Below, in pieces: positions 301 through 33,035 of a stretch of DNA of 33,035 nucleotides (position 1 is the first letter of the stretch; every line of letters begins with the position of its first letter). The stretch lies in the NCBI GenBank assembly GCA_019114845.1, contig DXEU01000071.1, positions 1 through 33,035 on the forward strand. Reading direction: 5' to 3'. Under the pieces are notes generated by a model. That model was not told where the DNA came from and searched no databases. It saw only the letters and a list, made by a program, of their open reading frames with translations. Source of the DNA: Candidatus Lachnoclostridium stercoripullorum (GTDB lineage Bacteria; Bacillota; Clostridia; Lachnospirales; Lachnospiraceae). Made by a program: the position numbers and the translations under genes.

Positions 301-341
301 GACCCCTGATCCGAAGGTGTGACGGATCGGGGGTCTTTTTC
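301..341 (+). terminator. Rho-independent terminator of rpsT
   Basis: GACCCCTGATCCG-aaggtgtga-CGGATCGGGGGTC followed by TTTTT. Confidence 0.9.
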
Positions 342-344
342 TAT

Positions 345-474
345 TTAATAGGAAACTTCGTTCCCTATTAAATAAAAACGCTCCGCTGTGGATGCGCACT
401 CCGCGCTTAAGGCAATTGGTTGCTGACGCAACCGCGCTCCGGCGCGAGTGTGCGCAGAAGCGCACACTTTTTTG
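345..474. repeat. 130-bp multi-hairpin intergenic repeat, copy 1 (inverted relative to copy 2 at 32906-33035)
   Basis: Base-by-base comparison with the reverse complement of 32906-33035 gives 128/130 identity with no gaps. Contains internal palindromes TTTAATAGGAAAC/GTTCCCTATTAAA, GGTTGC-TGAC-GCAACC, CGCGC-TCCG-GCGCG and GTGTGCGC-AGAA-GCGCACAC-TTTTTT. Confidence 0.95.
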
Positions 475-32905: not shown

Positions 32906-33035
32906 CAAAAAAGTGTGCGCTCCTGCGCACACTCGCGCCGGAGCGCGGTTGCGTCAGCAACCAATTTCCTTAAGCGCGGAGTGCGCATCCACAGCGGAGC
33001 GTTTTTATTTAATAGGGAACGAAGTTTCCTATTAA
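32906..33035. repeat. 130-bp multi-hairpin intergenic repeat, copy 2 (inverted relative to copy 1; truncated by the window end)
   Basis: 128/130 identical to the reverse complement of 345-474. Confidence 0.95.

Follow-up and report, generated by a model that had tools for sequence, protein, structure and literature searches.

A ~130-bp multi-hairpin element of Lachnospiraceae inserted behind intrinsic transcription terminators

Results

Two copies of the element at the ends of one contig

The stretch of DNA analysed here (the window, 33,035 bases) is an entire contig of a draft Lachnospiraceae genome of 207 contigs and 2.4 Mb that is 83% complete (G000). Close to its left edge, the intrinsic terminator of rpsT is followed immediately by a non-coding element of about 130 bp and then by holA, and a second copy of the element closes the window at its right edge (Table 1). 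The genes scanned between positions 487 and 31272, which include holA, a ComEC-like competence protein, a histidine kinase, DegV, Dus, YfhO, tyrosyl-tRNA synthetase, and DAHP synthase, are all ordinary chromosomal genes.

Table 1. Features of the element copies and the adjoining host terminator, in window coordinates
Feature	Position	Strand	Evidence
Host rpsT intrinsic terminator (GACCCCTGATCCG...CGGATCGGGGGTC) with T-tract TTTTTCTAT; insertion target	301..344	+	Sequence; element-free terminator in five congeners
Element copy 1, between rpsT and holA	345..474	+	Sequence matches, locus comparison
Hairpin H1, TTAATAGGAAAC-TTCG-TTCCCTATTAA	345..371	+	AGGAAA core invariant in 42 copies; stem base covaries
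A-tract ATAAAAA, complementary to host T-tract 336-344; proposed target guide	372..378	+	Coupling, covariation
Hairpin H2, CGCTCC-GCTGT-GGA(T)GCG, one extruded T	379..396	+	Folds
Hairpin H3, GGTTGC-TGAC-GCAACC, conserved GGAAAAT before stem	418..433	+	Alignment, covariation
Hairpin CGCGC-TCCG-GCGCG, alternative pairings possible	433..446	+	Sequence; weak support in consensus fold
Element's own terminator, GTGTGCGC-AGAA-GCGCACAC, with T-tract TTTTTTG; right end	448..474	+	Terminator and covariation analysis
Element copy 2, upstream of EamA-family gene, contig end at its first base	32906..33035	-	Sequence matches

An earlier note on this DNA had reported the two segments as a near-perfect inverted pair, and the match is as described: read in the same orientation, they are identical at 128 of 130 positions (98.46%) without a gap, the two differences being GGCAATT/GGAAATT and AGAA/AGGA, of which the latter falls in the last loop. 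The four stems that it named are likewise all found in the sequence. As a DNA strand, the element folds at -36.5 kcal/mol against -20.1 +/- 3.0 for shuffled sequences (z -5.5; 0 of 200), and the corresponding comparison for RNA gives a z of -4.8.

The right-hand copy stops exactly at the contig end, and copies of the element form the ends of nine further contigs of the same draft as well. Because several copies, this one included, lie at contig ends, the inverted pair at the ends of the window is an effect of assembly, and the inverted arrangement has no biological meaning. That the segment is a REP/MITE-type repeat, non-coding, dispersed, and mobile, holds up, given its many copies, its empty sites, and the lack of an Rfam match, but the weight placed on the inverted pair does not survive the contig break. 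The main feature, insertion behind host terminators, had been overlooked. A composite transposon built from the two inverted copies was also considered and rejected, as the span between them is filled by ordinary core genes and the right-hand copy lies at a contig end.

Family size and distribution

Rather than two copies, G000 contains 40 matches at E<=0.001, about 21 of them long and the rest partial, and the 17 full-length copies have a mean identity of 97.6%. The related genomes G005 and G011 carry many more, the best of which are 80-87% identical to the window copy. From 42 copies, a covariance model (R1) was built. It identified about 40 clear copies in the 0.8 Mb of stretches from G005 and, in the 0.4 Mb from G011, about 20, the stretches of both genomes having been chosen partly for known copies. 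The model has matches in 66 of 120 Lachnospiraceae genomes. The exact left-end sequence has its nearest named records in an uncultured Lachnospiraceae MAG and in Candidatus Caccovicinus merdipullorum. The element forms a dispersed family with recent mobility.

No Rfam family matches the element: nothing reached the gathering score, and relaxed thresholds returned only implausible candidates, such as microRNA families. Neither outcome that the earlier note had named as refuting a dispersed family, a total of two copies or a known Rfam match, was thus obtained. The literature search, with most subscription papers outside its scope, found no description of the family. A strict-pattern search of IMG/VR and a search of plasmids gave no match to the element. 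Twelve records named 'Bacteriophage sp.' do match it; MT835478.1, the larger of the two that were fetched, carries RecG, FakA, and a penicillin-binding protein and is bacterial chromosome, and other short records from the same project match too. A phage vector was rejected on the grounds of the negative IMG/VR search and the chromosomal genes of MT835478.

Short forms of 55-60 bp exist that consist of H1, the A-tract, H2, and a T-tract. There are also copies truncated at the 5' side (L022, 70-129; L145:15267-15338, reverse strand) whose remainder adjoins a terminator T-tract, a state that fits truncation on insertion and later deletion alike. In the wider class beyond Lachnospiraceae, R1 matches are weak only. 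Several of these, in other clostridial families, begin with the same succession of terminator, T-tract, AGGAAA-type hairpin, and A-tract and continue into an unrelated body.

Insertion 3' of host terminators

In nearly every aligned copy, the left flank presents a host terminator hairpin of varying sequence, then a T-tract, and then at once the element. When hairpins of <= -8 kcal/mol that end at the T-tract are counted, 19 of 20 copies in G000 possess one, against 4.8 in shuffles, as do 14 of 21 in G011, against 1.35. The signal is weaker in G005 (18 of 38 copies, against 11.4 in shuffles), where many copies are old. The target consensus is mostly TTTTT-pyrimidine-purine-T, and a T-tract followed by (A/G)T stands to the left of nearly all copies.

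Sites without the element are found at two kinds of location. In the rpsT-holA gap of five congeners (G004, G007, G003, G008, and G001), the terminator is present and is followed by holA or other sequence, with the element absent; at the same locus, G005 has a decayed copy, and G027, which belongs to another genus, carries a member of a different subfamily. G005 also contains R2 (for example, L082-L103), an intergenic repeat of ~200 bp (AAACGGACATGACCGC...GGGGCTTTCA) that is unrelated to the element and is present in at least 22 intact copies. About 22 R2 copies are empty, with CTTTCTCAT (CCCTACTTTCTCAT) running directly into ACCG, and five, which may descend from one insertion, are filled at exactly that point. 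The empty sites retain the T-tract sequence of the left flank, placing insertion precisely 3' of a short site that is kept at the left. As both the rpsT-holA and the R2 sites occur empty, insertion is here a matter of observation rather than inference, and we are highly confident that it is targeted to terminators.

Ends, tandem copies, and conserved structure

The right end of the element is its own terminator with a T-tract, and copies are found inserted behind it. Because the element carries its own terminator, tandem arrays form, and the target is re-created by each copy. Terminal inverted repeats are absent, hairpins lying subterminally at both ends, and the endings of the right T-tract vary among young copies. 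The left and right T-tracts of young G000 copies are not duplicates of one another (p 0.57), on which basis a target site duplication is rejected for young copies; a weak similarity between the two is present in G005 (p 0.03) and G011 (p 0.002).

Across the aligned copies, a structure of 35 pairs has 93% paired cells, with double changes at 24 of the 35 pairs and 161 double-change cells in all, compared with 42 in shuffles (0 of 500). Its first helix is formed in part by pairing of the host T-tract with the A-tract inside the element. For these two tracts, coupling is stronger than in shuffles in G005 (p 0.0016; positions 2 and 5, 0 of 1000) and in G011 (p 0.0002), values that are inflated by related copies, and the young copies of G000 show no such coupling. 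Coupling may reflect guided target choice, or else correction or selection after insertion; its absence from young copies means that it may arise after insertion. A single base is extruded from H2 in most lineages, and in one G005 subfamily there is none. On the minus strand, H2 and the A-tract complement behind it read, by sequence, as a terminator.

IS200-type elements and the search for a mover

Nine IS200-type (Y1) insertions in Lachnospiraceae were inspected, one of which is an ends-only derivative. Each of the nine follows a terminator T-tract that ends in GT, and each has an A-tract immediately 5' of its left hairpin. Two left-end types, GTCACAG... and TAGGCCAAGGGCCT..., occur among these elements, and the A-tract precedes the left hairpin in both. 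Their right ends (a hairpin and TGACT) are unlike that of the element; in G005, the layout of the left end is the same.

No Y1 transposase (PF01797) and no remnant of IS200 DNA was detected in the 83% complete G000 draft, despite the near identity of its copies. Over 120 genomes, co-occurrence of the element with Y1 is weak (odds ratio 2.1-3.0, p 0.017-0.07), and six genomes with at least 10 element matches are without Y1. The one of these six that was examined (G085) holds only old copies, at most 81% identical, which fits loss of the mover. An autonomous version, with an open reading frame between two element ends, was absent from 1.2 Mb of G005 and G011 stretches.

Discussion

We read the element as a non-autonomous mobile unit of ~130 bp. 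The sequences show that it inserts precisely 3' of terminator T-tracts, and it is about as likely as not that it does so by working like an IS200/IS605 end pair on which a Y1 enzyme acts in trans. Its transposition would then proceed via single-stranded DNA and be catalysed by a Y1 (HUH) transposase supplied in trans, as for IS200/IS605 ends. Cleavage would take place on the left at the host T-tract and on the right at the T-tract that ends the element; the internal A-tract would serve as the guide by pairing with the host T-tract, with H2 as the adjacent hairpin. The terminator at the right end of each copy would re-create the target for the next insertion. Among single explanations we regard this Y1 mechanism as the likeliest, although our confidence in it goes only about halfway.

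A precedent is given by IS608, which inserts 3' of a site that stays in its left flank, uses guide pairing, and has neither inverted repeats nor target duplications (PMC5934647, PMC7290912). Like the element, the ends of IS200/IS605 elements and of their ends-only derivatives (PATE), IS608 being an example, are inserted 3' of a short sequence that persists in the left flank, and they lack terminal inverted repeats. They further share with it subterminal hairpins, a target-complementary sequence just 5' of a hairpin, and the absence of duplication, which for the element applies to young copies. Unlike these systems, the element has no tnpA, its right end differs from that of the local IS200, no Y1 was found in G000, and H1, with its invariant AGGAAA core, is interposed between target and guide; moreover, it targets a terminator T-tract and makes new targets with its own terminator. 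The endings of the right T-tract also speak against the Y1 reading, since their variation among young copies exceeds the expectation for a fixed right cleavage site, as do the weak co-occurrence of the element with Y1 and the lack of coupling between the tracts in young copies. As the tests for shared ends and for the enzyme both failed, we do not place the element in the IS200/IS605 PATE class. It might tentatively be proposed, with rather less confidence, that a clostridial superfamily of non-autonomous elements, defined by host T-tract, AGGAAA hairpin, and A-tract, finds terminators by DNA-DNA pairing with the T-tract and offers its own terminator as the next target, with an enzyme yet to be named as the mover.

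A related alternative, which we consider unlikely though worth weighing, retains the same terminator-targeting element and assigns it a different mover, for instance the reverse transcriptase of a group II (IIC-type) intron or a recombinase that joins T-tracts. Group IIC introns insert behind intrinsic terminators. In G001, a group II intron (Rfam RF02001, RF01998, RF00029) lies directly after the terminator T-tract of an element copy, and the missing Y1 of G000, the varying right T-tract endings, and the few 5'-truncated copies that start beside a T-tract (L022, L145) point the same way. Such an intron, however, comprises a ribozyme and a reverse transcriptase, and the element has neither: none of the group II intron domains known to Rfam is present in it, and a group II reverse transcriptase as its partner was rejected, none being found in G000. 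The truncations can equally be explained as later deletions.

It could also be supposed that the element is a structured, mainly bidirectional terminator module that selection maintains and gene conversion spreads, and that it is no longer a mobile parasite. Compensatory changes do maintain its helices, and a terminator on the plus strand is matched by H2 and the A-tract complement, which read as one on the other strand. Three observations nevertheless show insertion and not conversion of existing sites: orthologous loci and R2 copies that are empty, near-identical young copies at unrelated sites, and tandem arrays. As the sole explanation, the module is already contradicted by the empty sites, and we judge it improbable.

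Two familiar classes of small repeat are very improbable. A classical MITE moved by a DDE transposase, with inverted ends and a target duplication, would suit the size, dispersal, and lack of coding capacity and the weak excess of matching left and right T-tracts in G005 and G011, but the element is without terminal inverted repeats, constant-length duplications are absent in the young copies of G000, and the target is a terminator T-tract. A REP/BIME element served by a RAYT (REP-associated Y1 transposase), the link that the earlier note had suggested, would likewise be an extragenic hairpin repeat of high copy number, but neither a RAYT nor any other PF01797 gene was found in the G000 draft at its 83% completeness, and an element of 130 bp with a modular body that targets terminators does not correspond to it.

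Among small repeats, the nearest with a stem-loop target are probably the EFAR elements of Enterococcus, which De Gregorio et al. (2009) reportedly described as modular palindromic repeats of ~170 bp with multiple hairpins that integrate at stem-loops such as terminators. On insertion, EFAR reportedly takes away part of the stem-loop that it targets; at the element described here, the host terminator remains intact, and the host group is another, this comparison being one of described features. EFAR elements are cited in PMC3733652. The pneumococcal BOX, RUP, and SPRITE repeats are small dispersed hairpin repeats enriched between convergent genes, SPRITE being terminator-like (PMC3049150). Unlike the element, BOX and RUP are bounded by inverted ends and flanked by target duplications, and a terminator T-tract target is not among the features described for the three families in the consulted passages of PMC3049150.

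In conclusion, intrinsic terminators represent a safe harbour, as insertion behind them seldom harms genes. An element that pairs with the T-tract and itself supplies a new terminator would, if this is true, explain how hundreds of copies are tolerated. Such an element would reshape the ends of transcripts in many gut Lachnospiraceae and would account for a class of assembly breaks; if the proposal is correct, it would also be a natural and testable example of single-strand transposition in which the target is chosen by base pairing.
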